Below, in pieces: positions 23,393 through 43,610 of a DNA stretch of 64,000 nt. Made by a program: the position numbers and the translations under genes. The DNA is from Gluconobacter frateurii (GTDB lineage: Bacteria; Pseudomonadota; Alphaproteobacteria; Acetobacterales; Acetobacteraceae). The notes beneath the pieces were generated by a model that was given only the letters and a program-made list of their open reading frames with translations, ran no database searches and was not told the origin of the DNA. Position 1 is the first letter of the stretch. The number at the start of each line of letters is the position of its first letter. The stretch spans positions 1,054,001-1,118,000 of the forward strand of contig NZ_BEWN01000001.1 of assembly GCF_002723955.1 (NCBI RefSeq). The letters run 5' to 3'.

Positions 23393-23546
23393 AGGCGCGA
23401 CTATTCGCCAGAGCCGGGAACGCGATAACGGTCCGGGATCATACCCCCGGATTTACTGCGCTTCAGAAACTGTAAAACAGACGTGTCCATGCCGGGGCAT
23501 CGTGCCCGCCGGATCTGTCCCCGTTCAGGGAAGCGATTGCACCCCG
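23393..23546. other. Intergenic region within the tail cluster
   Basis: A 154-bp gap inside an otherwise gap-free late block. It holds late motif copy 3. In Mu the late tail promoter is at a comparable place, before the P region. Confidence 0.55.
23430..23448 (-). promoter_or_regulatory. Late-promoter motif, copy 3 (before gp46)
   Basis: On the - strand this reads GGGGGTA-TGATCC-CGGACC. It lies 37 nt before the gp46 start codon. The pattern GGGGGTA-N6-CGGACC is shared exactly with two other intergenic sites. The flanking CGTTA is shared with copy 2. Confidence 0.7.
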
Positions 23547-24104
23547 TTACTGCGGTTTGCCCGTAGTCCCTGAACCCGTCTGAACCCCGGAATGCGTATG
23601 TGTGGACAGGGAAATCCCGGCACCCTTCACATCGCCCTGAGCCACGATCGTCTCCGTGACCGTCAGCTTCCCGGTAATCGCGACCCCGTCTGGCGTCACG
23701 TCCAGAACCGTCTGCCCACCGATTGAAACCAGCAGTTCCTGATGCGCGTCAACCCTGACGATCTTGCCGTCCTGAAGATAGATTTTCTGACCAACAGAAT
23801 CATACTGGCAGCTTTCGCCAGCCGTCAGGCCACCCATCCGGGCCGCAGCCGGATTGGCAGGTGGCAGCGCAATCACATCAGACGGATCAGAGCCCACCTG
23901 GATCAGGTGCGTGATCGCCCCATCCAACGGCACGGACGACGCGAACCCGAACGGCTGCCAGACCGGCACCTGGCTCCGCACCTGCCCATAATGCGCCTGC
24001 AACGTCAGCAGCTGCTCCGGCCCGGTATCGTCCAGATCCTCGACAACTGCCCGGACGTGCTGCCCCCTCAGTGCGTGGTGCAACTCTGTCAGCGGATCGC
24101 TCAC
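23547..24104 (-). CDS. Mu gp45-like baseplate spike protein (gpV)
   Basis: A 185-aa protein of the gpV/gp45 baseplate-assembly family: SVPLDGAITHLIQVGSDPSD, then GESCQYDSVGQKIYL, and an OB-fold followed by a C-terminal beta-helix with the HTHSGVQTG motif. HxH motifs in such spikes bind an iron ion at the tip. It has a GTG start that overlaps the gp44 stop. Confidence 0.88.
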   Translation of the reverse strand: MSDPLTELHHALRGQHVRAVVEDLDDTGPEQLLTLQAHYGQVRSQVPVWQPFGFASSVPLDGAITHLIQVGSDPSDVIALPPANPAAARMGGLTAGESCQYDSVGQKIYLQDGKIVRVDAHQELLVSIGGQTVLDVTPDGVAITGKLTVTETIVAQGDVKGAGISLSTHTHSGVQTGSGTTGKPQ

Positions 24105-25420
24105 GATTTCCCCCAGGTCGTTCCCGTAGTCGTTTTTCTGCGTCCGGATGTCGGCGGTGTATCTGCCTCGCCACTCAGGTCGTACGCGTCAGGCGGAACA
24201 ACGGAGATCCGTGCTTCTTCGCCATGCCCCGTGTTCGCCCATGTCACAGCGCCGATCAGCATGTCGCCATTGAGGCCATTGTACCAATCCTGAACAGGAA
24301 CCAGCATGTTCGGCCGCCACAGCGCACCGGTGGCATCGAGCACGCCTGGCACCGTATAAACAAACGCCTCGGAATGAGCGCGGGCCGTGCGATACCGCCA
24401 GTCTGCCTGATCCTGAAGCGACCACGGGTCCGCCGCCTGGCGCGCGGGCGTACGCTTGCGTTTCGGTGCCCGCGTGCCGGTCTGATAGGCCGCATTCCCG
24501 GCCGGTGCCGTTGTCCCTTGTCCCTGCGCCACGCTGTCGAGTGTCGGATTGGCGCTGTTCTGCGTCGCAGCGGACGCGCCACTCTGGGTTTTCGCCATGT
24601 GGACAATCGGCCGGAAGCGTTTGACGCCCGGATCAACGCAATGCCCGATCCGGCATGACGCCCCCAGCTCTTTCGCGCGGTGCCCGTTCGTCAGCGTCGT
24701 CTGCCCTGGAACTGAACCCACGTTCAACGCCGATTTAGAGCCCCTTAAAACGCTGTTAAACTGTCCCTTGACGTAGACATCCGAATGCCGTTCCGAGATC
24801 TGTGCCTCCATATGGCTGACATTCCCGCCCGGATAGACCAGCTTGTCCTGAACCCGTGTCGTTCCGGCTTTTGTCAGCAGCAGCTTGCCCAGACCGTCAG
24901 ACGTGACCAGCACGCCACGCTGCCGCGACAGACGCTCAACCGCCCCCAGAACAGTGTCAGTCTGCTCCAGTGCCACCAGCGTAAAGGGGGCGCCGGTTTC
25001 AACCTGACGGGAGACCGTCACGCCATAGGGGCTGGTCAGATGCCCGATGACCGTCTCCAGAGCAATCTGACGATACTCGGCCGGTCCAACCGGATTGGCT
25101 GTGCAGTCCACCAGATCCCCGGTCTTGTCACGTCCGGAAACTGTGACTGACAGATCTCGGTCAGATCCGGAAGAGTTCAGCCCTTTGACAAACCCTTTCA
25201 ACACGACAACGCTGTGGATCTCGATTTCCACTGCGTCGTGCATTTTGACGGTTGGCTGATAGCTGCTGTCTTCCGGGACTTTTTCCGCCAGGGTAAATCG
25301 AAACACGCCCGCCAGATCTGCCAGATCAATGCCCGCCTCGCAGGTTGTCCAGTTATGAATGGCCTTGCCATTAACCCGCACAATCCAGTTCCGGGCATGC
25401 GCCGTGACGGTCTCGCTCAT
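24101..25420 (-). CDS. Mu gp44-like baseplate hub protein (P / gpD family)
   Basis: A 439-aa protein of the late-control D / Mu P family. It forms the central hub under the tail tube. Visible features include the N-terminal VNGKAIHNW, DAVEIEIHSVVVLKGFV, VSGRDKTGDLVDCTA and a C-terminal region ending in TTTGTTWGKS. A central Pro/Lys/Arg-rich linker (APKRKRTPARQ) is present. It overlaps gp43 by 4 bases. Confidence 0.88.
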   Translation of the reverse strand: MSETVTAHARNWIVRVNGKAIHNWTTCEAGIDLADLAGVFRFTLAEKVPEDSSYQPTVKMHDAVEIEIHSVVVLKGFVKGLNSSGSDRDLSVTVSGRDKTGDLVDCTANPVGPAEYRQIALETVIGHLTSPYGVTVSRQVETGAPFTLVALEQTDTVLGAVERLSRQRGVLVTSDGLGKLLLTKAGTTRVQDKLVYPGGNVSHMEAQISERHSDVYVKGQFNSVLRGSKSALNVGSVPGQTTLTNGHRAKELGASCRIGHCVDPGVKRFRPIVHMAKTQSGASAATQNSANPTLDSVAQGQGTTAPAGNAAYQTGTRAPKRKRTPARQAADPWSLQDQADWRYRTARAHSEAFVYTVPGVLDATGALWRPNMLVPVQDWYNGLNGDMLIGAVTWANTGHGEEARISVVPPDAYDLSGEADTPPTSGRRKTTTGTTWGKS

Positions 25421-26820
25421 TGCTCCAGAACCTCCACGGTGCCAGGACCAACAGCGCCCGGATGCGAAATTCCGTTACGTGTCACCAGATCGTCCAGAAC
25501 CGTCTGCACCTGCGAAACGTCGTCACCGGCAATGGCATAGGCCAGCGTCCAGGCAGACATCTGCGCCGGAACGGTGACCGCCACCACACTCGGCAAACGG
25601 CCCACCTGGGCGGAACAGTCAGCAATCAGCGCAATTCTGGCCGCCCGTACCGCCGTCCACAAACCACTCAGCGAAACACCACACCCGGCAGAAGCAGCGC
25701 TTTCCAGATCTGCAATCAGACCATCCAGCCCCGCCAGATAAATATCACGAGCGGCAATCGCATCCGCGCCACTGACAAAATCCAGACCGCCCCAACATGC
25801 CAAAATCTGCGACACCGTGATTGCGCGGACAGCAACCGCCACCCCCTGCACCTGTCCTGGCACACCTGAAACAGCGGCAAGCGTGGTGGCAGACGTCGCA
25901 ATCTGATCGGCCCCAGACAACAACAGCGCCCCGATCGCCGCAGCAGTCACTGTGTCTGATGTATCCCCGACAACTGCCTGCGCCGGTGCCACCACACTCT
26001 CATCCGGATCTGTCACCGCGTTGGCCAGAGCAACAGGAACACCCGCAAACGCGCCCACAACCGCATTGGCGTAATCGGTCGAACTGTTATCCGCAGGTGC
26101 CGAAACACCCGCAGACAGCGTGGCAAGGGGCGTCGTCACCGCTGCCTGGATCGGCTGCGGCGCACTGGCCGTCAGACCGTCCCAGATCCCACTCGCCTCG
26201 GAGATCAAAGAATTGACGCCGCCTGCCAGGGCCAGTGGAATAGCCAATGGGGCCAGCACACCCTGAACCGCCAGTGTGGCCTCATCCACCAGATCGTCAG
26301 CCTTTTCCAAAAGACTGTTCAGCGTGTCCGTAATCTTCGAGAGGAGACCACCCGTGGTGGATTTTGCAGGTTCCCTGATGACCGAGACCGAAAACCGCGC
26401 CAGCCGGATCTGACTGGACGAAAACGAGATCTCGCCCGGCTCCACGATCCGCACCCGCAGACGGCCCCACCACGGGTGAACCAGCGTTTGCGGCCCTTTC
26501 TTCAGGAGAACCTTGCGCATCCGCGTCGCACGGATGACGTAATCGTCCCCCGAAAGGAACCCCGTCAGGTGCAGCGGCGCATCCAGTGCCCCGAAGTCCT
26601 GGAAGAGCTGATCCTCGACCGGCCGTTCCGGAAACAGAAACCGCTGAACCCGACGTCCAGCAGCTTCCCGGCTGTCCAGGCAGTCAAAAACCACACCACC
26701 AAGCGCAGCCGATCCGAGAAGACTGGACAGGGCATTCCCAACCAGAGAACCCACACCGGGGATCTGAGACAGTACGGACGCAGAAGACCCCAGACCGAAC
26801 GTCGAAAGAGAACCACTCAT
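25417..26820 (-). CDS. Mu gp43-like DNA circularisation / tail protein (N)
   Basis: A 467-aa protein of the phage N/DNA-circulation family. The N-terminal domain (FPERPVEDQLFQDFGALDAPLHLTGFLSG...VRATRMRKVL, then LVHPWWG) is characteristic. A long Ala/Val-rich helical region follows. In Mu, N protects the injected DNA and is part of the tail hub region. It lies between the tape measure and P, as in Mu. Confidence 0.85.
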   Translation of the reverse strand: MSGSLSTFGLGSSASVLSQIPGVGSLVGNALSSLLGSAALGGVVFDCLDSREAAGRRVQRFLFPERPVEDQLFQDFGALDAPLHLTGFLSGDDYVIRATRMRKVLLKKGPQTLVHPWWGRLRVRIVEPGEISFSSSQIRLARFSVSVIREPAKSTTGGLLSKITDTLNSLLEKADDLVDEATLAVQGVLAPLAIPLALAGGVNSLISEASGIWDGLTASAPQPIQAAVTTPLATLSAGVSAPADNSSTDYANAVVGAFAGVPVALANAVTDPDESVVAPAQAVVGDTSDTVTAAAIGALLLSGADQIATSATTLAAVSGVPGQVQGVAVAVRAITVSQILACWGGLDFVSGADAIAARDIYLAGLDGLIADLESAASAGCGVSLSGLWTAVRAARIALIADCSAQVGRLPSVVAVTVPAQMSAWTLAYAIAGDDVSQVQTVLDDLVTRNGISHPGAVGPGTVEVLEQ

Positions 26821-26821
26821 C

Positions 26822-28912
26822 TCAGGGCCTGTTCATCATACGGCCGCCCGAAGGCAGCACGGTGGTTTTGACGTGTGGATGGGGCGAAGCGTGGACAGCC
26901 AGTCCAGGCGCATGCGTCACATGCACTTCCAGTGGCTGATGCGCAGGCAGACCATGCCAACCCGGCCCCGTCGTCGGGACTGTTAGGGGACCGCGAATGG
27001 TCGGAGATCCCGGCATCTTCGGGTCCATATGCGTGAAAGCCCCGGAGATCGAGCCACTGACCCGATCTCCCCAACCCGCAACCCAGTGCTCAAATGACGT
27101 GAACCCGGCCTTGATATGATCCCAGTTATGGTAGAGCGCATATCCGAGAAGGGCAGCCGCCCCGACGACGATTCCGATCTCAGCCGTAGCCGCGATCCCG
27201 GCAATCCCGATCCCTTCGAGCGCAACAGTAATGATGCCAGCACCCGCCTTGATCGGACCTGCTACAGCGCCAAGAGCCCCAAGACCTGCGACGGCTGCCA
27301 GCGACCCACCCGCAAGTCCAAGAATGCCCGTGGTCAGGCCAGGCAGATGCTTGTCAGAGCCCTCCATCGCCTCGGTCAGCCCGTGGAAGCCGACCGTCAC
27401 GCCATGCAGGATAGGCGCAAAACCAATCCCCATACGTCGCTCCAGCTGCTCCCAGCTCTCATCAAATGACGTCGTCTGAATTTTCAGCGTTTTGATACCG
27501 GTCTCGAAATCCCGATCAATCACACTCTGGTTTGCCCCAGACGTCCGACGATGGATCTCTTCATACTGATCCATGTGCATCAGGATCGCCTGGACGAACC
27601 CACGGTCCTGCTCATTGTTGAACAGCGTTCCCAAGGCTCTCCGATCCTGTCCTCGATGCGTGATCCGGTCCACCACCCGGAGCACTGCCAGCATCGGATC
27701 TTCACCATGCCGCCGCGCATGGTCTTCCAGCCCAAACAGATCCACCCCGTAGTGTTGAAACCGCTTGGCCGTGTGTGGACTGGTGATGGCCTGAATAAAC
27801 GCACGTGCGTCTGTGGTCGCTTCCCCTTCGGTACCCGTGGATTTCCGCACGACAGCAAGCGCTGCCCCCAAATCGTCCACGCCTGATCGACCGTGCACGC
27901 CCAGAGCACCGGCAGCAGCGGCCACCTGAGGCAGCAAAGGGGCCAGCTTTTCAAACGGAAGGTCAGCCGATTTCCCGGCCAGTGCGACAGAAGCCAGTGC
28001 ACCACCCAACTGCTGGTCACTGATCCCCATGTTTTCCTGAAGGGCGAATGTCGATTTCGCAACCGCGTCTGGAGCCGCGTTATAGGCCGTGGCAATATGA
28101 GCCACCACTGGCATCACAGCATTCAGGCGCGCCTGGCTATATCCCTCACGCGAGAAGAAGCCTGCGCCTTCTGCCAGATCCTCGCCCCGCTGCCCCGTTT
28201 CCCGAGCAAGACGATCCATCTGCGTTGCGAAGGCGGCCGCAAACGCGTCATTCGCCGCACCGTGCAGATCCAGACCAATCCCGATATGCCTGATGGTATT
28301 GTCGTATTCCGCAGCGGCTTTGACTGGCTCGACCAATCCGAACCCGGCCGCAGCCGCGCCAAACGCCTGCCCAACACCGCGTTCCACCGATTCGTGAAAA
28401 TGCCCGGCCGCGTCCATAACGCGCCGCCCATAACGAGACCGGCCTTCCGGTTCTTCCTCTTCTTCAGAAGACCGGCGTCGCCCTCCGCCAATCTGCGGAA
28501 CCTGCTCGACAGCCCGTGTCGTACGTTCAGCTGCGGCCGTCACGGCCTCCAGCCCCGTCACTGCCTCAGAGGTGCCAATACGGGTCCGCGCCAGACTTTC
28601 CTCCAGAACGGTAGCCCCCATGGCCGTCCGTTCCAGCGCCGATCCGGCCTCAGTCGCAGTCGCGGCCGTGACCCCGAGCCCTTCGCCCAGAATATCAGCC
28701 GAACCCGTTGCCCGGCTCATCGCTTCAGAGAGAACGTCCGTCTGCTCCGCACAACGCGGAACGGGCTCCCAGACGCTGTCAAACGCGCTGTTCTGCCCCA
28801 GACGATCCAGGCTGGACGTCAAACGCCCAACCATTTGTTCGATCCGCTCGACCGGCCCTGACAGCTTGTCGAGCAGTGTCAGTTCGAACTGTGCTGTCAA
28901 AGTGCCGGACAT
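26822..28912 (-). CDS. Tail tape measure protein (Mu gp42-like)
   Basis: A 696-aa protein starting with FELTLLDKLSGPVERIEQMVGRL, the usual N-terminus of Mu-like tape measures. It has a helical first part, a central domain of the TP901-type minor tail protein (SFDESWEQLERRMGIGFAPI), and hydrophobic segments around residues 520-590 that may enter the host inner membrane. Tail length should scale with it. The ATG overlaps the stop of the frameshifted chaperone extension (TAATG). Confidence 0.88.
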   Translation of the reverse strand: MSGTLTAQFELTLLDKLSGPVERIEQMVGRLTSSLDRLGQNSAFDSVWEPVPRCAEQTDVLSEAMSRATGSADILGEGLGVTAATATEAGSALERTAMGATVLEESLARTRIGTSEAVTGLEAVTAAAERTTRAVEQVPQIGGGRRRSSEEEEEPEGRSRYGRRVMDAAGHFHESVERGVGQAFGAAAAGFGLVEPVKAAAEYDNTIRHIGIGLDLHGAANDAFAAAFATQMDRLARETGQRGEDLAEGAGFFSREGYSQARLNAVMPVVAHIATAYNAAPDAVAKSTFALQENMGISDQQLGGALASVALAGKSADLPFEKLAPLLPQVAAAAGALGVHGRSGVDDLGAALAVVRKSTGTEGEATTDARAFIQAITSPHTAKRFQHYGVDLFGLEDHARRHGEDPMLAVLRVVDRITHRGQDRRALGTLFNNEQDRGFVQAILMHMDQYEEIHRRTSGANQSVIDRDFETGIKTLKIQTTSFDESWEQLERRMGIGFAPILHGVTVGFHGLTEAMEGSDKHLPGLTTGILGLAGGSLAAVAGLGALGAVAGPIKAGAGIITVALEGIGIAGIAATAEIGIVVGAAALLGYALYHNWDHIKAGFTSFEHWVAGWGDRVSGSISGAFTHMDPKMPGSPTIRGPLTVPTTGPGWHGLPAHQPLEVHVTHAPGLAVHASPHPHVKTTVLPSGGRMMNRP

Positions 28913-29082
28913 TATTCCCCGCTCGTCTCTCTGCGGACCTGGTCCGCATATTCAGAACAGGACCCGGCCCAGAACCGCAGTTCCCCAGACGTCAACGCCC
29001 GGAGATCCTGCCGTCCAAAATTCAGGTTATGAGCAACCGCCGCTAGGAGGACGTTCCAACCTTCGGGCCATCGTCCGTAAAA
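28912..29082 (-). CDS. -1 frame extension of the tail assembly chaperone (gp41')
   Basis: Between the gp41 stop and the tape-measure start, the -1 frame is open and encodes VLLAAVAHNLNFGRQ, then LTSGELRFWAGSCSEYADQV. It ends in TAA, which overlaps the tape-measure ATG. It has no start codon of its own with a ribosome site, so it would be made by -1 frameshifting near the end of gp41, for instance at the GTTTTTA stretch (29078-29084). Tail chaperone pairs made by frameshift are known in many tailed phages. The exact slip site is not certain. Confidence 0.65.
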   Translation of the reverse strand, partial: FYGRWPEGWNVLLAAVAHNLNFGRQDLRALTSGELRFWAGSCSEYADQVRRETSGE

Positions 29083-29435
29083 ACGTTGATCACGCCTGTG
29101 GCACGGATGTAGTCGCGGGCAGACAGCTTGCGCAGCACCTTCTCACCGGCCGGTCCTGAATGACCGGTGGATGCACCCAGCAGGAACAACGTGCGAGATC
29201 CCGCCTTCGGCAGATTGGAGCTGTCGATGATGTCTCCGGCATCCAGCTCACGGAACACCAGTTCGGACACCGTAACCGTGTTTTCGCCCTCGGAAGTCGA
29301 TCCCTTCAAACTAACCACACGCGTCAGCGGCATCAGAACAGTGCCGTCATCCTGCCAGGTGCAGCCATTCGGCAATTTCGGCAGAACAGGATCAGCCGCT
29401 ACGGAAAGGGCAGTTTTGACAGCCAGCTTGCTCAT
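29043..29435 (-). CDS. Tail assembly chaperone (Mu gp41-like)
   Basis: A 130-aa protein between tail tube and tape measure, with the pattern DGTVLMPLTRVVSLKG and VTVSELVFRELDAGD found in tail assembly chaperones of Mu-like phages. It should coat the tape measure during tail building. Its 3' end lies in the region where a -1 shift would add the extension at 28912-29082. Confidence 0.8.
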   Translation of the reverse strand: MSKLAVKTALSVAADPVLPKLPNGCTWQDDGTVLMPLTRVVSLKGSTSEGENTVTVSELVFRELDAGDIIDSSNLPKAGSRTLFLLGASTGHSGPAGEKVLRKLSARDYIRATGVINVFTDDGPKVGTSS

Positions 29436-29788
29436 GTCAGTTCCTGATAGGTGTTGAAGGTCCAGTTGATCTGGGCCTGTCCGTTGTCCTGGGCGTCCGG
29501 AAACGTCTTCACGTACGCATCCGAAATCGTCCAGGTCTGGCCAGTATCGGCCTGAAGCTGAAGCTCCCCTTCACCGAGGGAAGGATCAAACTCGGTCAGA
29601 GACACATCCGGCGTGATCAGGACCGTCGCCTGAACCATGCCCGGATTGTACTGCTGACTGCGCAGGGTCCGCCGTCCGGCATTGACGTCATTGTTCTGCT
29701 GTCCGGGCAGCCGAAAACGGATGCCTTTCTGGACGTCATAGGTTTTCCCACGCCAGACGAGCGCGATTGTTCCAATAGTCTGCGTCAC
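29432..29788 (-). CDS. Tail tube protein (Mu gp40 / M)
   Basis: A 118-aa protein of the Mu tube family: IGTIALVWRGKTYDVQKG at the start, then GRRTLRSQQYNPGMVQATV. It polymerises into the inner tube. It has a GTG start just after the sheath stop and a 4-base overlap with gp41. Confidence 0.88.
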   Translation of the reverse strand: MTQTIGTIALVWRGKTYDVQKGIRFRLPGQQNNDVNAGRRTLRSQQYNPGMVQATVLITPDVSLTEFDPSLGEGELQLQADTGQTWTISDAYVKTFPDAQDNGQAQINWTFNTYQELT

Positions 29789-29792
29789 GGCG

Positions 29793-32808: not shown

Positions 32809-32820
32809 GCGTCTTTCCCC

Positions 32821-33756: not shown

Positions 33757-33759
33757 GGA

Positions 33760-34209
33760 TCAGATCTCCGTGTAAGGCGTGCCGTCAGCGTCGATGCCTG
33801 CAAAGACACCAACCTGGAGACGGGCCGTGCCGCCCTCCGGCGTTTGTGTGAGGGATACGGTCTCATCATCGACCGCATAGACAGGCTTGCCCTTGTCCGC
33901 CCAGGTCGGAGCCGTGTCGGAGAACGGCAGGTCATAACAGCCGGTCAGACAGTCCACCGCCGTATCGCCACCAACGCCCGGACCTGTGCCTGGGAAATTC
34001 GCCGTGTTGATCTGCGCGTGTCGCGCCAGACCCAGAATGGCCACCAGCGCGGACGGCGTCCCCGTGGAACCGGCCGGAACCAGCGTGCCGTCTGCGCAGA
34101 CGGCCGTGATGGAATTGCGATAGAGCGCAAATCCTGTAGCAACCTTGCCGGAGAACTGCGGGGAGCGTGGCCCCATCTTCTGACGAAGCGTGCGATCAGC
34201 GGTCAGCAT
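33760..34209 (-). CDS. Putative head decoration / capsid cement protein (Mu gp33 position)
   Basis: A 149-aa protein, beta-rich (GFALYRNSITAVCADGTLVPAGS, then GLARHAQINTANFPG), between scaffold/protease and capsid genes. The position and pattern fit a capsid decoration protein with a DUF2190-like build. Its start overlaps the protease stop (TGATG). Confidence 0.7.
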   Translation of the reverse strand: MLTADRTLRQKMGPRSPQFSGKVATGFALYRNSITAVCADGTLVPAGSTGTPSALVAILGLARHAQINTANFPGTGPGVGGDTAVDCLTGCYDLPFSDTAPTWADKGKPVYAVDDETVSLTQTPEGGTARLQVGVFAGIDADGTPYTEI

Positions 34210-35177
34210 CAGACATCACCCCGCATTTTCTTCATGTCCTCGACCTTGATGCCAAGGAGCCCAGCCACCTTGGTGTCGTCGTCGCTGGCGGATGTCTTGC
34301 GCTGCGTATGGCGTTCGACTGAGGTTCCGAGCTTGGGCAGGCCAGAAATGATCTTCTCGGCAGAAGCCGGGTTCTGCATATGCAGGGTGATCAGCTCGGC
34401 CTTCATGTCCTCGGTGATGACAGCGCCGCCATCGGCCGCAGTCTTCAGAGCCGCTTCAGCCGCTGTGCGAGACGCCTGTTCCTGAAGTGTCTTCACCTGT
34501 GCCTCAAGGGCCGTCACCTGCTGCGCATGCGTCTGCACCGCAGATGTCTTGGCCTTCAGACCCGTCACAATCGCCTCTACGGTCTGCTCACCGCTCAGGC
34601 CAGCAAGTCCGACGACCTGTGTATGAAGCTGAAGGGCCTGACCGGCACGGGACAAAGCCGCTTCCAGATCTGCCTGCGGAGTATTTTCGGGGAGGCCAAG
34701 CCTCCGCGCGATGTCGGAGGGGTTCATCCCGGTCTCCTGTGTGTGAAGTTCAGTGAGCGTCAGGTTCGGCAGGTTGGTCAGGCTGGCGCGAACCAGACGC
34801 GTGACCGCTTTACCAGACGCATCAACGGCAAAAGCAGGTGAAACCCCCCGATAGGCTTTGTCCTGCATCAGGGCATTGCCACGACGGTTCCAGTCCACAC
34901 GTCCCCAGATCCCGTCCTGGCGAGCCTGAAGCTCGACGATCCAGCCCACGGCCGGAGCGCTGCCGCCTTTTACGGCCGCCAGATCCGTTGCGTGGTTTTC
35001 ATCCAGGACAAGCCGCTTTTGTCCCTGCATGGTGTGCAGGATCAGTTTCTCGGCATCCGGTACCGTATAAGGGCCACGACCATCCGTGCCCCGGAAGTCA
35101 CCGGCAGGAAGCAGGTGTATCCATTGCGGAACATCGTTGCCCTCGGGCAGGGTCATGTGGAGATGAAGGTTTCTCAT
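34209..35177 (-). CDS. Head maturation protease/scaffold (Mu gpI)
   Basis: A 322-aa protein with the Mu I protease domain in the N-terminal half (WIHLLPAGDFRGTDGRGPYTV, HATDLAAVKGGSAPAVGWI, YRGVSPAFAVD) and a helical scaffold domain in the C-terminal half (ALEAQVKTLQEQASRTAAEA), much like Mu I/Z. The ATG at 35177 is preferred to a GTG at 35189. No strong ribosome site is seen for either. It is the first gene behind late motif copy 2, so a late transcript may start here. Confidence 0.88.
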   Translation of the reverse strand: MRNLHLHMTLPEGNDVPQWIHLLPAGDFRGTDGRGPYTVPDAEKLILHTMQGQKRLVLDENHATDLAAVKGGSAPAVGWIVELQARQDGIWGRVDWNRRGNALMQDKAYRGVSPAFAVDASGKAVTRLVRASLTNLPNLTLTELHTQETGMNPSDIARRLGLPENTPQADLEAALSRAGQALQLHTQVVGLAGLSGEQTVEAIVTGLKAKTSAVQTHAQQVTALEAQVKTLQEQASRTAAEAALKTAADGGAVITEDMKAELITLHMQNPASAEKIISGLPKLGTSVERHTQRKTSASDDDTKVAGLLGIKVEDMKKMRGDV

Positions 35178-35380
35178 GAACCAGCACACTGCCGGTTCGT
35201 GTCAGCGCTGCTAACGGTCCGGGTTCATACCCCCGAAATTCCGTCCTGCATATTTCGCGCGACAGGCCCATGAAAGCCCTTTTGCCCCTCCGGTTCTACC
35301 GGAAAGACCTGAAACGCGCTCTAGACCCGTCTTAAACTGTTTTAAACGTGTTCAAAAACTCAATCAGCACCCACGGTTCG
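35178..35380. other. Intergenic region between gpG and gpI genes
   Basis: It contains late motif copy 2 (35216-35234) and a perfect hairpin TCCGGT-TCT-ACCGGA (35289-35303) after gpG without a clear T run. No gene is seen. Confidence 0.5.
35216..35234 (-). promoter_or_regulatory. Late-promoter motif, copy 2 (before gpI)
   Basis: The - strand reads GGGGGTA-TGAACC-CGGACC, 38 nt before the start codon of the I gene. The same spacing and sequence occur at 43097-43115 and 23430-23448. Mu has late promoters Plys, PI and PP at comparable spots. Confidence 0.7.
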
Positions 35381-35890
35381 TCAGCGCGGCCTCATTGCCC
35401 GCCGAAGGAACCCTTCAAGCTCTGTGAGAACATCCTCGCGGTCCTCAGAGGTGAATGCGAGGTATGGCCGCGCCGGAACCGTCACGCTGCCCCTGTGAAA
35501 CAGGCTGCCACCCATTTCGAACGAAAGCTGCTTGGCATTTTTGGGTTTGATCACCGCGCCAAACTGATGAACGGCGGCATAGACCTTGTTTGATCCCCAC
35601 CGCAGAACCGGTCCGGACGCCTGAGCAGTCAAAGAACCGTACAGCCCTGCATTGAAATTTGGCCCGCGCAGAATGCCCGGTCCTTCTTTCGTCAAAGCAT
35701 ACTGCGGGTTCAGAGGTTTGAACGGCTGCCCCTGCGGATCGACTTCCTGTTCAATGCGATGCCGGGTGCTGGTCAGAACGATATGCCCCACAGCTTTCAG
35801 AACATTCTCAGGGTTCCGGCCGATGCCCGCAATGCGTTCCAGTGTGTCCCGCATGGGCTGGAATGATCCCGTCAGACTGATGCTCGCCAT
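35381..35890 (-). CDS. Virion morphogenesis protein (Mu gpG)
   Basis: A 169-aa protein of the Mu gpG family (VGHIVLTSTRHRIEQEVDPQGQPF, PLNPQYALTK, VYAAVHQFGAVI, PARPYLAF). It is a tail-head joining or tail-completion factor. The ATG at 35890 is chosen with AAGGATT upstream. Confidence 0.88.
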   Translation of the reverse strand: MASISLTGSFQPMRDTLERIAGIGRNPENVLKAVGHIVLTSTRHRIEQEVDPQGQPFKPLNPQYALTKEGPGILRGPNFNAGLYGSLTAQASGPVLRWGSNKVYAAVHQFGAVIKPKNAKQLSFEMGGSLFHRGSVTVPARPYLAFTSEDREDVLTELEGFLRRAMRPR

Positions 35891-35903
35891 GCTTGCAATC
35901 CTT

Positions 35904-36032
35904 TTACCCGCAGGAGTACAGTCCAAACCGCGACGCACGGTGACACGGTGATAAATCTACCGGCCGTAGCACTGCCCCGTTCAGGAGCAGGAGCGCCATG
36001 TGGGTTTTTGTAGGCCCACCCGTGCGTCGCAT
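35904..36032 (-). CDS. Possible small protein between F and G
   Basis: A 42-aa frame whose ATG overlaps the F stop (TGATG) and whose stop lies 13 bases before the gpG start, next to its ribosome site. It fills a gap in an otherwise gapless operon. It has one short hydrophobic run (ALLLLNGAVL). It may only serve translational coupling. Confidence 0.35.
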   Translation of the reverse strand: MRRTGGPTKTHMALLLLNGAVLRPVDLSPCHRASRFGLYSCG

Positions 36033-37243
36033 CACTGTTCAAAATCCGGAAGGTCAGCCCCTCTGCCGAACAGAGGGGAGTGCTTCCGAAGCCAACGCCG
36101 CACATCCTTGGCGCTGATCCGTTGGAACGACTGAAGATAGTTCTTCGTCCCATCTCCTGTGCGCTTCACAACGATATTAAACAGCTTGTCCTTATGGGAC
36201 GTCACCATCCGGACATGCAGCGGCGTATTCCCTGGCAACACTACGCCAGGCGCACCGATCATGCCGGGAAGGTCCACATAATGGGGCTCGACCTCACCAT
36301 GCTTGATATTCTTGCTCAGCGTATCGTCTGACAGGATCACGTCAGCTGTCTCAGACCCCAGAACATGCTGCACTTCCGCAGGCATGGTCCCGGCCGTGAC
36401 TTCACCATGTGCCCCTGGCTTCAGCAGCGCTTCCACATCCTTGACCTGCTGCGCCTCCCGATCAGCTGGAACAGTCACGTGATGCGACGGTGGCGCGGTG
36501 GGTCTCGGCTCCAGTTTCGGCTGAACGGCCGTGCGGGCCTTCTGATTGTCCAGCCACGCCTTGCCCGGATTATACGCGAATGAGGGATCAATCCCTTTGG
36601 GGACCATCTCCGTTCGCCCGGTTGCCGGGTTCTTCCAGGGGCGCAGATCCAGCGGCGGTGCTTCAGAAATCGTCCAGCCATTCCGCTTCAGCTGCGAGCG
36701 CGTGACCGGCTCAACCGTGCAATGACAGTGCCAGCCATTCGGCGGGAAATGCGTATCCCACCACGGGTCGTCGTTCGCCAGAACCAGTCCGTCCCAGGCA
36801 ACATGCTCCGGCCGGGGATGCGGGCAGGTATGATGCCGGTAGCGCCATGCCGGGAAAATATCCCGTGCTTCCTCGGTCGCCAGCTGGGCATACTGACCGG
36901 CCGCATAGGCTGTCGTCAGATTGGTGTTGTAGATGATCTTGGCCCGCCAGGCCGGATCACTACCATGCTGCCAGCCGTTCTTCGCAACAATCCTGTCGAA
37001 GTCCTGCTGGAAGTCATGCAGCGTCGTGCCATCGGTCAAAGCACGGTTTACAGCCGTCTTAAGATCCGTCAGCAACGCCTGAGAAGCCGCACCGGCAACG
37101 GAAAATCCGACCGAATGCGCTTTGTCCATCACCTCGCCAAAGCGCTCGGTCGGCACCAGAGCCTTCTGACGAAAGAACGAAATAGCCTCACTCGGCGCCA
37201 GCGCAGCTCCATCCAGAAGAGCGTGGTCGAAACCGTCAGCCAC
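36032..37243 (-). CDS. Head morphogenesis protein (Mu gpF/gp30) with C-terminal nuclease-like domain
   Basis: A 403-aa protein. The N-terminal part has the Mu F pattern (VSTRQKALVP-like SFFRQKALVPTERF; IIYNTNLTTAYAAGQY; WRYRHHTCPHPRPEH; HFPPNGWHCHCTVEP). The C-terminal ~110 residues (ILSDDTLSKNIKHGEV, NIVVKRTGDGTKNYLQSFQRI) resemble the PBECR group of barnase/EndoU/colicin-like nucleases found on phage head proteins. No ATG is near; the GTG at 37243 overlaps the portal stop and is the likely start. It acts in head assembly and possibly on incoming host or rival nucleic acid. Confidence 0.82.
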   Translation of the reverse strand: MADGFDHALLDGAALAPSEAISFFRQKALVPTERFGEVMDKAHSVGFSVAGAASQALLTDLKTAVNRALTDGTTLHDFQQDFDRIVAKNGWQHGSDPAWRAKIIYNTNLTTAYAAGQYAQLATEEARDIFPAWRYRHHTCPHPRPEHVAWDGLVLANDDPWWDTHFPPNGWHCHCTVEPVTRSQLKRNGWTISEAPPLDLRPWKNPATGRTEMVPKGIDPSFAYNPGKAWLDNQKARTAVQPKLEPRPTAPPSHHVTVPADREAQQVKDVEALLKPGAHGEVTAGTMPAEVQHVLGSETADVILSDDTLSKNIKHGEVEPHYVDLPGMIGAPGVVLPGNTPLHVRMVTSHKDKLFNIVVKRTGDGTKNYLQSFQRISAKDVRRWLRKHSPLFGRGADLPDFEQ

Positions 37244-38963
37244 GACGCTGCATCTGCTGAAGCATCTGTGCCTGTCCGGCGAGTTGTGCGATTGCCATGC
37301 CGGTGCTGACGGCTTCAGCAAACTCTTCGTCCGGCAACTTCAGTCCGGCCAGGCGGCCTTTCATCTCCTCCAGGCTCCCGGACGTTTCCACCACTTCGCG
37401 GGCGGCATCCGTCATCTTCGACAGACCAGCCATCGCATCACGTCCCAGGCGCTGCGTCATCAACTCGATCAGCTGCGGCCCCTCGGACTGAACATGCAGA
37501 TCCACGAGCCTCCCGATCTGCGTATGCAACGCGACGCGTTCCGGGTCCTGGGCAGGCTGAACCTGGACATTCTGATCCTCATCCCGTGGCTGCTTGACCG
37601 ACGGCGGCGTCACCGTGCCCGGCTGGTCGCGTGGTGGCTCGATCGTCCCCGGCTTGGCCTGAGGCGCAATAACGGGCTGCGGCTGGGCAGCAAGCCCCAC
37701 AACCTCGTCGCCTTCTTCAGGCGGGTTAAGGGCTAACCGGTCATAAAGATCCTGCGCCCGAACCTTCCAGCCTTGCGGCCCGGCATACTGAATAAACTTG
37801 ATCAGTTCATCCAGCGTCGGTTCATCCGGGCGGCCGATCGCAAGGATTGGATATTTTTCCTGTGGGCCAAAGGTGAAATCCACCATGACCTGGATAATCT
37901 GCTCATTGACCGTATGAGCCAGAAGCATCGCATCAGCCCGCTCAATATCCTCCTGGACAAGCCGATGCGTCTTGCTGGAGGCGTGCGCGCCCTGATGGCT
38001 GTCTGCCGTTCCGGTCTGACCCAGCACCGCCTTGGAAATCTGTTCGTCAAACCAGCGGATACGGCTCAGATGCAGTTCATGGGAGCCCGCGCCACCCTTC
38101 GGTTCAACAAACTCAACCTCCATTCCTTTTGGAATGATAGCCGCGCAGGACCCTGCAATATCCGTGACGGCCTGCCACAGAACGTCCCGGTCTTCTTCTG
38201 TGCTTTCCGGCCCATACGTGCCAATCCGCATGGGAAGGCCATAGTTCTGAACAAAGATGCTCCAGTCCCGAAGCGTGAACATCTTGAACATCACAGCCCA
38301 AGCCACAGCACGCGTCAGGCCGCTCTGGATTGTCAGTCCCGACCAGCTGGGATGTCGATGAATGACCATCTTTCGTGCGGGAAGTTCTGCCAGACCGGCC
38401 ATGGGATAGCCGTCCTCGATCCCCGAAGCGCTCTGGCCCTCCATACTGCGAAGGTTGACGGTTTCCCCGTCTTGATAAGAGATCTCGAACCAGCGCTGCG
38501 GGCGAAACTGGAAACCGCACGGCCGGTTGTTCCCCGGTTCCAGCTTCCAGTCGATCTCCAGAACACTGAAGCCCTTTCCGATGGCATCCAGCATATCGAA
38601 CAGGGAACGCCGAAGCACTCCGGTCTCAACCCAGTCCCGAACCCAGTCCGCAATCTTCTTGCCACGCTTGCTGTCATCAGCTGGCGTGACCGTAATCGGC
38701 AACTGGGAAACGGACCGCTTCCGGGTCCCGAGAACGCCCAGATAATGCAGATCCCGCCGCTCGATTTCTGCCGCGATTTCCTGCCAGGCCTGACTATCTC
38801 CCTGATCGGCCGCCCGCATCAGACTACCAAGAGAGGCAGGATTCATTCCCGCCATTGGTGTGCTGACAGCCGCTGGTCTCAATCCAACCATAGTGGGCGG
38901 AGCAACGGGCCTCTTTAGAAGATCCTGCGGGATCGGACGCCCTTCAGCATCAAGCAGAGCCAT
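37236..38963 (-). CDS. Portal protein (Mu gp29, DUF935)
   Basis: A 575-aa DUF935 portal protein: RDLHYLGVLGTRKRSVSQLPITV, GKGFSVLEIDW, PKGMEVEFVEPKG and AVLGQTGTADSHQGA. It forms the DNA gate at the head vertex. The C-terminal part has a Pro-rich linker (PQPVIAPQAKPG) and a helical tail. Its start overlaps the terminase stop (TAATG). Confidence 0.93.
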   Translation of the reverse strand: MALLDAEGRPIPQDLLKRPVAPPTMVGLRPAAVSTPMAGMNPASLGSLMRAADQGDSQAWQEIAAEIERRDLHYLGVLGTRKRSVSQLPITVTPADDSKRGKKIADWVRDWVETGVLRRSLFDMLDAIGKGFSVLEIDWKLEPGNNRPCGFQFRPQRWFEISYQDGETVNLRSMEGQSASGIEDGYPMAGLAELPARKMVIHRHPSWSGLTIQSGLTRAVAWAVMFKMFTLRDWSIFVQNYGLPMRIGTYGPESTEEDRDVLWQAVTDIAGSCAAIIPKGMEVEFVEPKGGAGSHELHLSRIRWFDEQISKAVLGQTGTADSHQGAHASSKTHRLVQEDIERADAMLLAHTVNEQIIQVMVDFTFGPQEKYPILAIGRPDEPTLDELIKFIQYAGPQGWKVRAQDLYDRLALNPPEEGDEVVGLAAQPQPVIAPQAKPGTIEPPRDQPGTVTPPSVKQPRDEDQNVQVQPAQDPERVALHTQIGRLVDLHVQSEGPQLIELMTQRLGRDAMAGLSKMTDAAREVVETSGSLEEMKGRLAGLKLPDEEFAEAVSTGMAIAQLAGQAQMLQQMQRRG

Positions 38964-40531
38964 CAGTTAAGCCTCCCACGAATGCCGTAATTATCGAGGC
39001 CAGTGTGCCGCCTGGACCGCTCTTCCGCTATTTCCTGCTGCACCGGCCAAGTACCCGCTCTGCGCTCATCATCCGCCGCACTCGCATAAGGAGAGGGCGC
39101 TGCCCGATAGCCATATTCTTCCGGATCGGCCCTGCTGGCCGCATAAGCCATGGCGAGCGCAATCGCAGCATCACCGTGCCGCTTGCCGGTGCCACCTTCG
39201 CTCCGCTGATCTGGTACACGCGCGACACCTCGAACCAGCTTCAGGGCGCGAATGTCATCATGAATTTCCTGGTCTGCTGGAAGCGTAAGTGTTGCATCTT
39301 CAAACGCCGCTTTCATGGGCGGCATCTCATCACGGTACCAGCCCTCAGAAAGCATGACCGCTTCAACGCGGGAGCCGTACCGTTGCACCGTCACTTCAGC
39401 CAGATATTGGCCGTTACCACGTCCGTCCATCTTACCCGCCCGAAAACGGGGCAGACGGTCCAGAACATAATGCAGGATCTGCTTCTGCTGCTCGAAGGGC
39501 GTGTTGCGCAATTCAACAACCAGCACTGTCGCCCGGTCTGTATTGGGCCGCATCTGAAGAACCCAGATCACAGTCAGATCGCCTGAACGACCGAAGTCCT
39601 CGCCAAAAACATGCGATGCTTTTGGGTCCAGCCCGTCCAGAACAGGCGCAAGTTCTTCTTCACAGAATGAGCGGGCTTCAAGCTCACGAAGGCGATCTGC
39701 CATCAGCGTAAATGCCGCGTCACAGGCCCATCGCTTGACTGGAACGGCCTTGTCGCTCCGGGCGTCAATGAGCGCCAGGGGAATATATGCCCCGGTAGAC
39801 GGGTTCGGGATACAGAACAGCTCTTCGTCCGCATTATCCTGATAAAACGCCAGCATTTCGGTTCGCCAGGCATCCTGTCCGGCCTGCGTCCATTCAATGC
39901 CCTGAGCCTCACAGATCTTGTGATACACGCCGTCCCGCAATGCATCATCCAGCGTGATCCGGATCAGATGATACGGCACTTTTTTGGCGCGGATCTTCTG
40001 CACAAGGACATTGAACGGGTTCTGATCCCCGTCATGGGTACTGATGATCAGAACCTTCCCGCCCCAGATCAGCAGCGCCATGGCGGCCTTCAGTAGCTCG
40101 TCCAGATCATCATGGAACGCGGCCTCATCCAGAATAACCAGTCCCTGCATTCCTCGAAGCGCTCGCGCACGGGAAGGAAGTGCGAGGATCTTGTGCCCCG
40201 ATGCCAGATCCAGCCGGAAAACCTTGGTGTCCTTCTCAGGGTGCTCTGGATCTCGCCAGAAGGATTCCTGCACAGTCGCCACGACGTCTTGCATCGTCGC
40301 GGCATGTTCGGCGCAGTAATCAATAAATTCCCGCGCCATTTCGAGATTATAGCCCATATAAAAGACGTCCATGCCGCCTTCGCCACGTGCCGTCGCCGCC
40401 GTGATGTCAGCAATGAAGGACGCGGCCCAGGACAAGCCCGTACGGCGGCTTTTCTCCACCACGACCACCTTGTGGTCCCGAACGGCCTGCATAGTCTCGG
40501 ATTGGTAACGCAGGAAAACTGGCTGGCTCAT
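38963..40531 (-). CDS. Large terminase subunit (Mu gp28)
   Basis: A 522-aa packaging ATPase/nuclease. It has an adenine-motif start (FLRYQSETMQAVRDHKVVVVEKSRRTGLSW), with the Walker A variant near residue 27, Walker B GLVILDEAAF near 130, and a nuclease domain with an acidic triad candidate (FGEDFGRSGDL, KRHGDAAIALAMA). Packages phage DNA by the headful mode in Mu. It overlaps gp27 by 4 bases. Confidence 0.93.
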   Translation of the reverse strand: MSQPVFLRYQSETMQAVRDHKVVVVEKSRRTGLSWAASFIADITAATARGEGGMDVFYMGYNLEMAREFIDYCAEHAATMQDVVATVQESFWRDPEHPEKDTKVFRLDLASGHKILALPSRARALRGMQGLVILDEAAFHDDLDELLKAAMALLIWGGKVLIISTHDGDQNPFNVLVQKIRAKKVPYHLIRITLDDALRDGVYHKICEAQGIEWTQAGQDAWRTEMLAFYQDNADEELFCIPNPSTGAYIPLALIDARSDKAVPVKRWACDAAFTLMADRLRELEARSFCEEELAPVLDGLDPKASHVFGEDFGRSGDLTVIWVLQMRPNTDRATVLVVELRNTPFEQQKQILHYVLDRLPRFRAGKMDGRGNGQYLAEVTVQRYGSRVEAVMLSEGWYRDEMPPMKAAFEDATLTLPADQEIHDDIRALKLVRGVARVPDQRSEGGTGKRHGDAAIALAMAYAASRADPEEYGYRAAPSPYASAADDERRAGTWPVQQEIAEERSRRHTGLDNYGIRGRLN

Positions 40532-41103
40532 TTGACGCCGAACGCTCCTGCCATAAGAGCCGCTGCCGTCTCGGCAGACAGACCCTGCTTCTTTGCGATG
40601 ACACCAATATTTTCCTTGGCTTCCGCCTGAAGCATCTCGCGAACCTGTCGCTCAACCTCGGCCCGATATTCCGCATCCGTCTTACTGGCCTTGGACAAGC
40701 TCTCCAGAGCCTTAGCCACAAGGGAAATCCCCATAGGATCGCGCTTGGCAAATGCCTGTCCGCCCTTGGACAGTTCGGACGGGTCTCCCTCCTGAGCCTT
40801 CATAAACAGGTCAAGAATGGCCGTGTGCATCAGCTCAATATTCAGCTGCGCATTCCGTCCGATTTCCGCTGCTCCCAACCGTCCGACCAGAGCCGTCGCG
40901 ACATCGCGCGAACGACGCATTTGCACGCCCAGCCGGTCAAGGTTCTGAATATGACGTCCTAGTGCCGAACGGCTGATTTCGACACCGTCCAGTTCAGCCA
41001 ATGCCGCCAGAATTTCATCAATGGTTGAGCCACCATCACGCAACTGGCCAATCCGCTCCCGGATCTCATCCGGCATACGATCAATCGAAGACGGCCGCGC
41101 CAT
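40528..41103 (-). CDS. Small terminase-like protein (Mu gp27, DUF3486)
   Basis: A 191-aa protein of the DUF3486 family: ARPSSIDRMPDEIRERIGQLRDGG, then ISRSALGRHIQNLDRL. It has an HTH-like N-terminus and sits next to the large terminase, as Mu gp27 does. It probably recognises the phage pac end. Confidence 0.88.
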   Translation of the reverse strand: MARPSSIDRMPDEIRERIGQLRDGGSTIDEILAALAELDGVEISRSALGRHIQNLDRLGVQMRRSRDVATALVGRLGAAEIGRNAQLNIELMHTAILDLFMKAQEGDPSELSKGGQAFAKRDPMGISLVAKALESLSKASKTDAEYRAEVERQVREMLQAEAKENIGVIAKKQGLSAETAAALMAGAFGVK

Positions 41104-41106
41104 GAT

Positions 41107-41418
41107 TTACAGTGGCTTCCGAGAGGCGACACCGGGAACGGCTCGCTCGTTATCACGTGCCTGCAAGCCCTCGACTGTCAGTGTGGCAACCCAGAGTGGC
41201 CGTCCAGGCGCCAGCGGATAGCGTTCCAGCGTGACACAGCCTTCACGTTCCAGATGCTCCAGATCTTCCTGAATGTCTTGCGCCTGCGCAGGATGGCCCA
41301 TGGCCCGGATGCACTTCAGAACAATGTCTGCGTTCAGACGACGGTCTGCCATCTGCGCAATCGCGTCCAAAACATACCAGCGACGGTTTTCAACCAAGAC
41401 CTGACGAACAGCGTTCAC
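41107..41418 (-). CDS. Mu gp26-like winged-helix protein
   Basis: A 103-aa protein predicted to be a winged helix (RRWYVLDAIAQMADRRLNADIVLKCIRAMGH, then LEHLEREGCVTLERY and a strand pair ending LWVATLT). It matches the small protein in front of gp27 in Mu-like phages. The GTG at 41418 gives a GTGA overlap with the small gene upstream and has GGGGAGAG before it; a longer frame start at 41457 is less likely. Confidence 0.72.
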   Translation of the reverse strand: MNAVRQVLVENRRWYVLDAIAQMADRRLNADIVLKCIRAMGHPAQAQDIQEDLEHLEREGCVTLERYPLAPGRPLWVATLTVEGLQARDNERAVPGVASRKPL

Positions 41419-41543
41419 AGCCGCTCTCCCCGAGATAAATGAGTGGTAGGCGGGCAACTGAGGTTATCGGCCGTCACGCCCAGAAAGGCACCCGCCAAAA
41501 AAGCCACAGCGATGATTGCCACCTCGAATAAAACGCTTTTCAT
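41415..41543 (-). CDS. Small membrane protein
   Basis: A 42-aa protein with one strong hydrophobic segment (VAIIAVAFLAGAFLGV), a single Cys and a Ser/Arg tail. The ATG at 41543 overlaps the upstream gene stop (ATGA) and its stop overlaps the next GTG. It could be part of a lysis group with the neighbouring TM protein, but no holin or spanin family is recognised. Confidence 0.6.
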   Translation of the reverse strand: MKSVLFEVAIIAVAFLAGAFLGVTADNLSCPPTTHLSRGERL

Positions 41544-41860
41544 GGCTTTCTCAGATGCCCTTCAACAATCAGGTGCAGGAGCTTGTTTGACTGCTCCTGG
41601 TCATTGGAAATTTTCTGGAGCATTTGCGCCGTGTGCCGGTCACGCTCTTCATTCGCAGCGTGCTCTCGCTCAAGAATGGCATGCCCTTGCTCCAGGCTGG
41701 CGTGCCCTCGTTCCAGGCTAATGATGCGCCGCTCGATTGTCAGATGCCGCAACAGCGCAACCACCGCCCAGACGGTGAGGACCAGCCCAAAAATCAGGGC
41801 AATGATCATCACCGGCCAAGGCAACACCACGCTCGCGGCCACATGGGCCGCGTCGCCCAT
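41540..41860 (-). CDS. Membrane-anchored coiled-coil protein (Mu gp25-like, DUF2730)
   Basis: A 106-aa protein with one N-terminal transmembrane helix (VMIIALIFGLVLTVWAVVALL) and a soluble coiled coil with a heptad-like repeat LERGHASLEQGHAILEREH. This fits DUF2730 proteins of Mu-like phages between lysozyme and terminase genes. A role in lysis or spanin-like action is possible. Confidence 0.75.
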   Translation of the reverse strand: MGDAAHVAASVVLPWPVMIIALIFGLVLTVWAVVALLRHLTIERRIISLERGHASLEQGHAILEREHAANEERDRHTAQMLQKISNDQEQSNKLLHLIVEGHLRKP

Positions 41861-42273
41861 CAGCTTGCGGCAGGCTCGACAGACGCACCCTCGGTCTGCG
41901 CACCAGAAGCTGCGTCGTCAGACGTCGCATCCGTAAGCTGATCCAGGGGAACCAGCGTCGTCGCCAGATCGTAAATCGCCGATTTCAGGTGGCTCTGCAC
42001 AGCGTCGAGAGACGGCACGGAGACACCGGCTGCGACGGCCAGAGTGGCAAACTCGGAAATCGCGGTCTGAACCAGAGGGTTTTCGCTTTCAAAGGTTTTG
42101 AAAGACGTCACCAGATGGTCAATGCCACCATTCGTGGCCGTCACGGCCGAACGGACAGCCTGATTGGCAATCTTCTGGTACCGCGCCCCTTTGCCGGAAA
42201 TCGCGCTGGCAATGACCGGAGTAATCAGCGCACCAATGGACGCAAGAGACGTGAGATTGAGCTTAACGGCCAT
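41860..42273 (-). CDS. Phage protein of the lysis-terminase interval
   Basis: A 137-aa protein, Ala/Ser/Thr-rich and mostly helical, with a hydrophobic N-terminal patch (SLASIGALITPVIASAISG) and an acidic, low-complexity C-terminus (ATSDDAASGAQTEGAS). No family is recognised. It lies between endolysin and the gp25-like gene. Confidence 0.6.
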   Translation of the reverse strand: MAVKLNLTSLASIGALITPVIASAISGKGARYQKIANQAVRSAVTATNGGIDHLVTSFKTFESENPLVQTAISEFATLAVAAGVSVPSLDAVQSHLKSAIYDLATTLVPLDQLTDATSDDAASGAQTEGASVEPAAS

Positions 42274-42352
42274 GTCGGCCTCCCTGGGTGCGCCGCGTTC
42301 TCGCGCAGGTACGTTGACCGGCCGGTGCGCGCCCGCAGCACGGCCAGAACCG

Positions 42353-43060
42353 TTAGGCGAGCGCGGGCATTGCCGTCAGAAGAGCAACAGCAGCCTCAAC
42401 ACGCTGATCCAGCCGCCCGAGCCACCCTCGACCGAACTGGGCAAAACCCTTGAATGAGCGATAAGCCGCTTCCTGCTGGCTGGCACACGCATAAATCAGT
42501 ACCCGCAGCCGCGCGTCCTGGGCTTTGACGGCCTTCAGTGTGCCCGGACCGATAATGCCATCAGACGTCACACCCAGATCATCCTGAAGACGACGCCGAT
42601 ATCGGTCTGACAATGACAGGAGAATGTCCTGAACGGGCGCGCGCAGAACTGCGGCAAGCGTCAGTTCGCCAATATCGCCGTCAATCTGCTCAGGCTGCAT
42701 ACACAGCACGCGCTGCAACTGCTTGGCAGCCCGCGCCACGCCGCAGTTAAACGCAAAGTCAAACAGCAGCAGATCCACACCAGCCGGAAGCTGATCGCCA
42801 TTGATCGCCCGCCAGTAAAGACACCGCGAAATAGCGTTGAACTGATCCTGTGTGATGGACTGCATGACAGTCTTCGTGACCATCGACGCGTCGCCCAGCC
42901 ACCGCACCATGACAGGCGCAGAAATCCCGCGCATCGTGCCAACGAGGTTGCCTTGGCCTACAGCGCCAAAGGTCCAGTTCCCCGCATCAGAGTGCAGACA
43001 CTGGTAAAGCCCCTCGCGCGAGGCGGTAAATTGTGCGGCGATATCGAAATTGAAATCCAT
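42353..43060 (-). CDS. Endolysin, GH108-type lysozyme with peptidoglycan-binding domain
   Basis: A 235-aa protein. The N-terminal domain has the GH108 pattern with the likely catalytic Glu16 in TASREG and a Trp-Thr motif (GNWTFGAVGQG). The middle and C-terminal part matches PG_binding_3 (FDFAFNCGVARAAKQLQRVL, QIDGDIGELTLAAV, DGIIGPGTLKAV). No signal peptide is present, so a holin is needed. It corresponds to Mu lys and sits behind late motif copy 1. Confidence 0.85.
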   Translation of the reverse strand: MDFNFDIAAQFTASREGLYQCLHSDAGNWTFGAVGQGNLVGTMRGISAPVMVRWLGDASMVTKTVMQSITQDQFNAISRCLYWRAINGDQLPAGVDLLLFDFAFNCGVARAAKQLQRVLCMQPEQIDGDIGELTLAAVLRAPVQDILLSLSDRYRRRLQDDLGVTSDGIIGPGTLKAVKAQDARLRVLIYACASQQEAAYRSFKGFAQFGRGWLGRLDQRVEAAVALLTAMPALA

Positions 43061-43096
43061 GCCCCGACATTAGGCGGGGAGGCTTTATCTATTCAG

Positions 43097-43115
43097 GGTC
43101 CGAGAGCTTACCCCC
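43097..43115 (-). promoter_or_regulatory. Late-promoter motif, copy 1 (before lysozyme)
   Basis: The - strand reads GGGGGTA-AGCTCT-CGGACC, 36 nt before the lysozyme start and directly after the stop of the Mor/C-like activator gene. The block matches copies 2 and 3 in both conserved halves and in the 6-base spacer. Confidence 0.7.
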
Positions 43116-43548: not shown

Positions 43549-43562
43549 GTCAAAAATAATCG

Positions 43563-43597: not shown

Positions 43598-43610
43598 CCT
43601 TTTAATAAAT

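Follow-up and report, generated by a model that had tools for sequence, protein, structure and literature searches.

Late promoters of a Mu-like prophage of Gluconobacter frateurii are predicted to join an activator site to a leaderless start

In bacteriophage Mu, C acts at the late promoters Plys, PI and PP, and Mor acts at Pm. The gene for the activator adjoins that for lysozyme, promoters precede lys and I, and they carry a dyad-like site upstream of, or overlapping, the -35 region together with a non-consensus -10 element; the Mor dyad is described as centred at -43.5 (PMC4287176). We place the Mu transcript starts some 24 nucleotides (nt) upstream of both lys and I and some 347 nt upstream of P, with an uncertainty of 1-2 nt, by mapping oligonucleotides described as reaching 20 nt past the start (PMC4461284). 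In RcapMu and ThpS-P1, Mu-like phages of the Rhodobacterales, a Mor/C-like gene likewise stands before the endolysin gene, and a shared dyad or motif precedes endolysin and I. We analyzed a 64,000-nt stretch of Gluconobacter frateurii DNA (contig NZ_BEWN01000001.1, positions 1,054,001 to 1,118,000; hereafter the window), in which a Mu-like prophage shares with Mu the activator gene next to lysozyme, the predicted promoters before lysozyme and I, the dyad-like site and the non-consensus -10. A 19-nt motif, GGGGGTA-N6-CGGACC, precedes three of its late genes. We suggest that the motif is very probably the site of the prophage's own Mor/C-like activator, and that the promoters to which it belongs likely produce messenger RNAs (mRNAs) that begin at the start codon.

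An earlier note on this DNA had placed the motif at 43097-43115, 35216-35234 and 23430-23448 on the minus strand, and all three are exact matches at those coordinates. These are the only copies in the window, and 100 dinucleotide shuffles with 0 mismatches allowed gave a mean of 0.00 and a maximum of 0. The note had seen no fourth copy, and a search of the whole genome (3,309,380 bases) also returned only these three; when 1 mismatch was allowed, one extra match appeared, on a different contig. The claimed distance of 36-38 nt to the gene starts was confirmed as 36 nt for lysozyme (ATG 43060), 38 nt for I (ATG 35177) and 37 nt for gp46 (ATG 23392), and the genes were correctly named, since they match Glyco_hydro_108 lysozyme, the Mu-like I protease and GP46. 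The label of PP analogue for the third site, taken strictly, has to be given up: the site lies between gp45 and gp46, with the homologue of P (gp44) upstream at 24101-25420. The third late promoter stands before P in Mu and is predicted to stand before gp46 in the prophage. What had been overlooked is the -10 at a fixed spacing, the likely lack of a leader, the lack of a Shine-Dalgarno sequence, and an inverted repeat around the -10.

To place the motif among its relatives, we searched for the activator at several levels. It matched in 6 of 26 genomes from the genus and in 41 of 397 from the family, and the search also covered viral contigs and genome contigs of Gluconobacter, Neokomagataea, Komagataeibacter and Acetobacter. 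The data set comprises 68 late gene starts (27 lysozyme, 23 I and 18 gp46) from 27 records, the window and 26 others, and 52 of the starts are nonredundant. We refer to sites of the kind found in the window's prophage as W-type. All 10 W-type sites, in 4 records, lie exactly 24 nt from a NANNNT hexamer, which is followed after 6-8 nt by the ATG. Of the 52 nonredundant sites of all types, 49 have NANNNT where the geometry predicts it; at 19 other shifts, given equal freedom, only 1-19 of 52 do. Each site would thus form part of a sigma-70-type late promoter with a weak -35 (CTGA-like at lysozyme) and a NANNNT -10. In Gluconobacter oxydans, the -10 is reported as a weak 'nAtnnn' and the -35 as 'ttGnnn', with 16-23 nt between them, and the ribosome-binding site as 'aGGAg' (PMC5756330). 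If the hexamer is the -10, transcription would start on the A of the ATG or at most 2 nt from it, and the site would be centred near -45.5; counted from the predicted start, this is the position that Mor occupies in Mu (PMC4287176).

The translation signals agree with such a start. None of the 68 late starts has a Shine-Dalgarno core at -17 to -4, whereas 84 of 158 internal late starts carry such a core; for internal starts in the window the count is 9 of 21. The median pairing energy was -2.9 at the late starts and -6.5 at the internal ones (p 5e-15). Given the position of the -10 and the lack of a Shine-Dalgarno sequence, the late mRNAs are likely to be leaderless: the activator-driven transcript would begin at the ATG or within 2 nt of it, and the first gene of each late operon would be read without a leader. 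In this they would differ from the mRNAs of Mu, with a predicted leader of 0-2 nt against about 24 nt for lys and I and 347 nt for P. In G. oxydans, leaderless mRNAs account for 62 of 1344 assigned starts, or 5% (PMC5756330); such messages are rare in the host genus, yet they seem to be the rule for these late operons.

At lysozyme, the predicted activator site GGGGGTAAGCTCTCGGACC (43097-43115, minus strand, as are all features given here) was recognized by motif search and shuffles. By reading of the sequence it is followed by a -35-like CTGAAT (43091-43096), 18 base pairs from the -10 hexamer, and a -10-like TAATGT (43067-43072) that lies 24 nt past the site and 6 nt before the ATG. The inverted repeat CCCCG-N8-CGGGG (43062-43079) surrounds this -10 and ends 1 nt before the ATG of the GH108 lysozyme gene (42353-43060). 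Before I, the site GGGGGTATGAACCCGGACC (35216-35234) is followed 24 nt on by CAGTGT (35186-35191), 8 nt before the ATG, and the repeat GAACCGG-N7-CTGGTTC (35178-35198), with one G.T pair, abuts the ATG of the head protease gene (34209-35177). For this gene ATG 35177 appears better placed than the longest-frame start GTG 35189, because the homologues align from the ATG. Before gp46, the site GGGGGTATGATCCCGGACC (23430-23448) is followed 24 nt on by AATAGT (23400-23405), 7 nt before the ATG, and the repeat GGCG-N8-CGCC (23394-23409) ends 1 nt before the ATG of the baseplate gene (22904-23392). The two further sites were located as for lysozyme, the repeats rest on sequence and pairing statistics, and all three genes, identified by family matches, are predicted leaderless from the Shine-Dalgarno analysis. 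We discarded the idea of an exact dyad with its centre on GGGGGTA, as the copies do not keep it, notably the I site of the closest relative (L005). A search of Rfam with positions 12000-54000 gave no match at the gathering thresholds.

The arms that flank the -10 pair with each other and end at the ATG or 1-2 nt before it in the relatives too. The mean stem was 3.87 pairs when both arms came from the same site, versus 2.87 when arms were exchanged between sites (z 8.2, 0 of 20000 permutations). When the frame was slid along the promoters just two pairing peaks appeared, the -10 repeat and the palindrome of the activator site (z 6.5). The stem excess was seen for each gene (z 4.2 for lysozyme, 6.0 for I and 2.9 for gp46) and with one phage per clade (z 6.5; clades assigned by eye), and 106 nonredundant internal starts gave none (z -1.8). 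Perfect stems of at least 5 pairs occurred in 22 of 52 sites, with 5.7 expected, and swapping arms among the promoters of a single phage never gave as much pairing (0 of 5000 exchanges); at several sites the repeat is weak or lacking. Because the arms differ even among promoters of the same phage, the repeat is a structure and not a sequence recognized by a protein. It may be a further point of difference from Mu.

A possible role follows from where the repeat would be transcribed. It would be present in RNA that reads through from upstream, in the case of lysozyme from the activator gene mor, and would be missing from the late RNA. Between the mor stop and the lysozyme site no terminator is seen in the sequence, so that mor RNA is expected to read into lysozyme; the terminator scan gave one terminator-like site, which is upstream of mor. 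In read-through RNA, a hairpin against the AUG and the lack of a Shine-Dalgarno sequence would prevent expression of the gene until the activator switches the promoter on. We put forward such a translational lock tentatively, as somewhat short of an even chance. A comparable arrangement is described for T4 gene e, soc, 49 and I-TevI, whose longer early transcripts contain an inhibitory structure and whose late mRNA, owing to the position of the late promoters, lacks the 5' part of that structure (PMC3014915). In T4 the Shine-Dalgarno sequence and/or the AUG is inside the helix and the late mRNA keeps its ribosome site; in the prophage, unlike T4, the entire repeat precedes the AUG and the late mRNA is predicted to be leaderless. 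The resemblance is functional and not one of descent.

The same pairing could act in DNA. The paired arms might tune melting of the -10, or extrude as hairpins, so that formation of the open complex depends on the activator, with no translational lock. The -10 is centred in the repeat although the arms are otherwise unrelated between sites, at the lys, I and P promoters of Mu, C is reported to act on the transition from closed to open complex (PMC4461284), and G.T pairs, which RNA would tolerate, are not clearly above chance. No known factor or mechanism, however, needs paired flanks, and GC-rich flanks alone would not have to pair, yet the pairing exceeds that found on exchange of arms within the same phage. 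We regard a role in DNA as possible but, on balance, rather unlikely. Less credible is that the mRNAs do have leaders, with a start farther upstream, the hairpin as an element of the 5' leader and the -10-like hexamer as a conserved loop. A hairpin beside the AUG would then be present in every late mRNA and would be conserved for that reason. Against this, the loop retains just the two hallmark bases of a -10, the putative leader would have no Shine-Dalgarno sequence, and with a start farther upstream the activator site would come to lie near -25, whereas the centre of the Mu Mor dyad is at -43.5 (PMC4287176). Leadered late mRNAs are therefore improbable.

The site itself belongs to the phage and, in one recombinant, goes with the type of its activator. 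Nearly every record has a site of its own, before the same genes and in the same place, and mostly palindromic. When promoters were aligned on the -10, identity over -56 to -36 was 72% within a phage (49 pairs) versus 36% between phages (990 pairs). Elsewhere there was no sharing within a phage: 29% versus 28% in the spacer, 43% versus 42% at -19 to -7, and 26% versus 25% in the upstream region. This comparison used 21 of the 27 records, with near duplicates L043, L044, L055 and L089 (the exception), and also L047 and L067, omitted. In L005 (record G412), whose Mor is 82% identical to that of the window, three W-type sites, detected with a looser pattern, precede the same three genes. Record G409 combines a W-type Mor (78% identity to that of the window) with an I gene that agrees at 538 of 600 nt with its counterpart in L041; the Mor of L041 shows 43% identity. 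In the alignment of these two at I, the upstream flank is also nearly identical, and the promoter core between flank and gene differs, with a W-type site in G409. Read from these alignments, G409 is the product of a natural exchange: its I site agrees with the type of the activator and not with the gene neighbourhood.

A Mor/C-like gene lies directly upstream of the first site, as in a Mu-type arrangement with sites before lysozyme and I. Its product matches phrog_836, 'late transcriptional activator', with an expectation value (E) of 1e-15, and Pfam Mor (PF08765) with an E of 0.0014 and 19 bits, under the curated cut-off of 24.9; the Pfam model matches 19 of 19 aligned relatives at E<=1, the best at 1.5e-6. 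A profile search gave a weak match to the solved Mor structure 1rr7 (E 0.08), and profile comparison with Mu C gave an E of 2.5e-4 over 61 columns with a match probability of 43%; pairwise BLASTP against Mu C gave an E of 0.24. A helix-turn-helix lies on the C-terminal side of the model. Foldseek against the PDB gave no match at E<=0.001, and Mor was not among the 50 matches listed. The protein probably belongs to the Mor/C family, as a distant member. The earlier note had given its gene as 43123-43548; the start is probably ATG 43500 instead of GTG 43548 (gene 43123-43500), because in L005 the longer frame is interrupted by a stop at codon 4. In the window, positions 43500-43600 contain a terminator-like hairpin with a T run and then the stretch TCTGCATGATTATT..GTGGTACANT, which is conserved in relatives with different Mor types. 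This conserved stretch is probably mor's own promoter, one with a leader.

Several observations weigh against the proposed reading. A clean palindrome is not present in every copy of the W-type site. In G410 (L115/L120) a W-type site precedes gp46 at contig positions 112-129, and the Mor is of the L041 type; this may reflect misassembly at the end of a metagenome contig, or a real mismatch of activator and promoter. At gp46, a site of the phage's own type is missing in L042 and L043 and only half present in L052. The distances between Mor proteins and those between sites are significantly correlated in Mantel tests (r 0.26, 0.55 and 0.43), but at I and gp46 further regions show such a correlation as well, so that descent confounds the test and these correlations are not used as proof. 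NANNNT is missing before lysozyme in L046, L052 and L058 (3 of the 52 sites), TGA as a possible -35 core is present in only 33 of 52, and the -10 is weak and was taken as the best of several offsets. Stems hold 3 G.T pairs against 0.83 expected and 0 A.C pairs against 0.31, too few to separate roles in RNA and DNA, and the members of the inverted-repeat set are related and hence not fully independent.

The confounding by descent also leaves room for a different protein at the motif, which might be the operator of a host factor or a phage repressor and not the site of the Mor/C-like protein. The site, however, varies between phages and is identical in kind within a phage, it follows the Mor type in G409, and the host chromosome has no further exact copies; we think another regulator unlikely. 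That the repeats are due to chance, or are functionless remnants of a duplicated promoter cassette, is hardly credible, for only the shortness of the motif speaks for it, the three copies have unrelated spacers and flanks, and relatives in several genera retain the layout. The earlier proposal of activator sites in late promoters is largely supported by the site statistics, the position, the recombinant G409 and the match of the neighbouring activator, as is the statement that the site sequences of the window are unlike those of Mu. We rate it very likely that the three copies serve the prophage's own activator, and the promoter with such a site and a leaderless start, taken together, remains likely.

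Outside these records, the layout was found again in G669 (L137), from another alphaproteobacterial family, where the lysozyme ATG is preceded by GGGGCGGATGTGAACATCTGTCCCC, CTGA, GAAAAT and a 7-bp repeat, with the distance of 24 nt counted by eye; the I gene was not found in G669, and a second late start in L137 was discarded, as its frame has only 10 codons. Among phages less closely related the layout has disappeared or was not recognized; it was not recognized in RcapMu or ThpS-P1, and the RcapMu endolysin start has a GGAG-type Shine-Dalgarno sequence. In RcapMu (L038) the dyad CCCCCGGACCTGTGTCCGGGGG, followed by TTTT, lies at 14017 and 22439, about 70 nt before the endolysin and I starts, and may be either a terminator or an activator site. 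In ThpS-P1 (L039) the sequence GACCAACTwGTTGCGCATG precedes the endolysin and I genes, at 13446 and 21742.

The composition of the data set bears on how these counts are read. Two of 20 nearer stretches (L048 and L054) were left out for lack of a lysozyme homologue after Mor, and 16 of 20 more distant ones because the gene, start or layout was not recognized or the contig ended; at least 3 of these 16 (L069, L076 and L077) show a Shine-Dalgarno sequence before the next gene. For gp46, L042 and L043 were excluded for want of a site of their own type, and L065 and L067 because the start or site was unclear. Near-identical copies among the viral and named-genome-contig loci were not added, and a contig match, L113, was ascribed to chance, there being no Mor gene there. 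Start codons were picked by homology with an ATG required, those of lysozyme in L065 and L067 being chosen by eye. Standard forms were used for the anti-Shine-Dalgarno sequence and for the base frequencies of the sigma-70 -10.

A literature search, in which subscription journals were mostly uncovered, found no paper describing late promoters of Mu-like phages as leaderless, and none dealing with the late promoters that Mu-like prophages have in acetic acid bacteria. In an article on temperate phages of acetic acid bacteria (PMC8566455), a search by terms gave no Mu-like, transposase or leaderless passage.

If the proposed reading is true, a Mu-type late switch would work through leaderless mRNAs in alphaproteobacteria. 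Conceivably, though we would not call it probable, this phage family times its late genes by the choice of transcript start, with one lock per late operon at three operons. This would be a second, independent answer to the problem posed by T4 gene e, that of keeping lysozyme silent in read-through RNA. If the lock is real, the site of the activator would have been replaced repeatedly in evolution while the frame of the promoter was kept. The many natural pairs of activator and site also offer a ready set for learning how Mor/C-like proteins read DNA.

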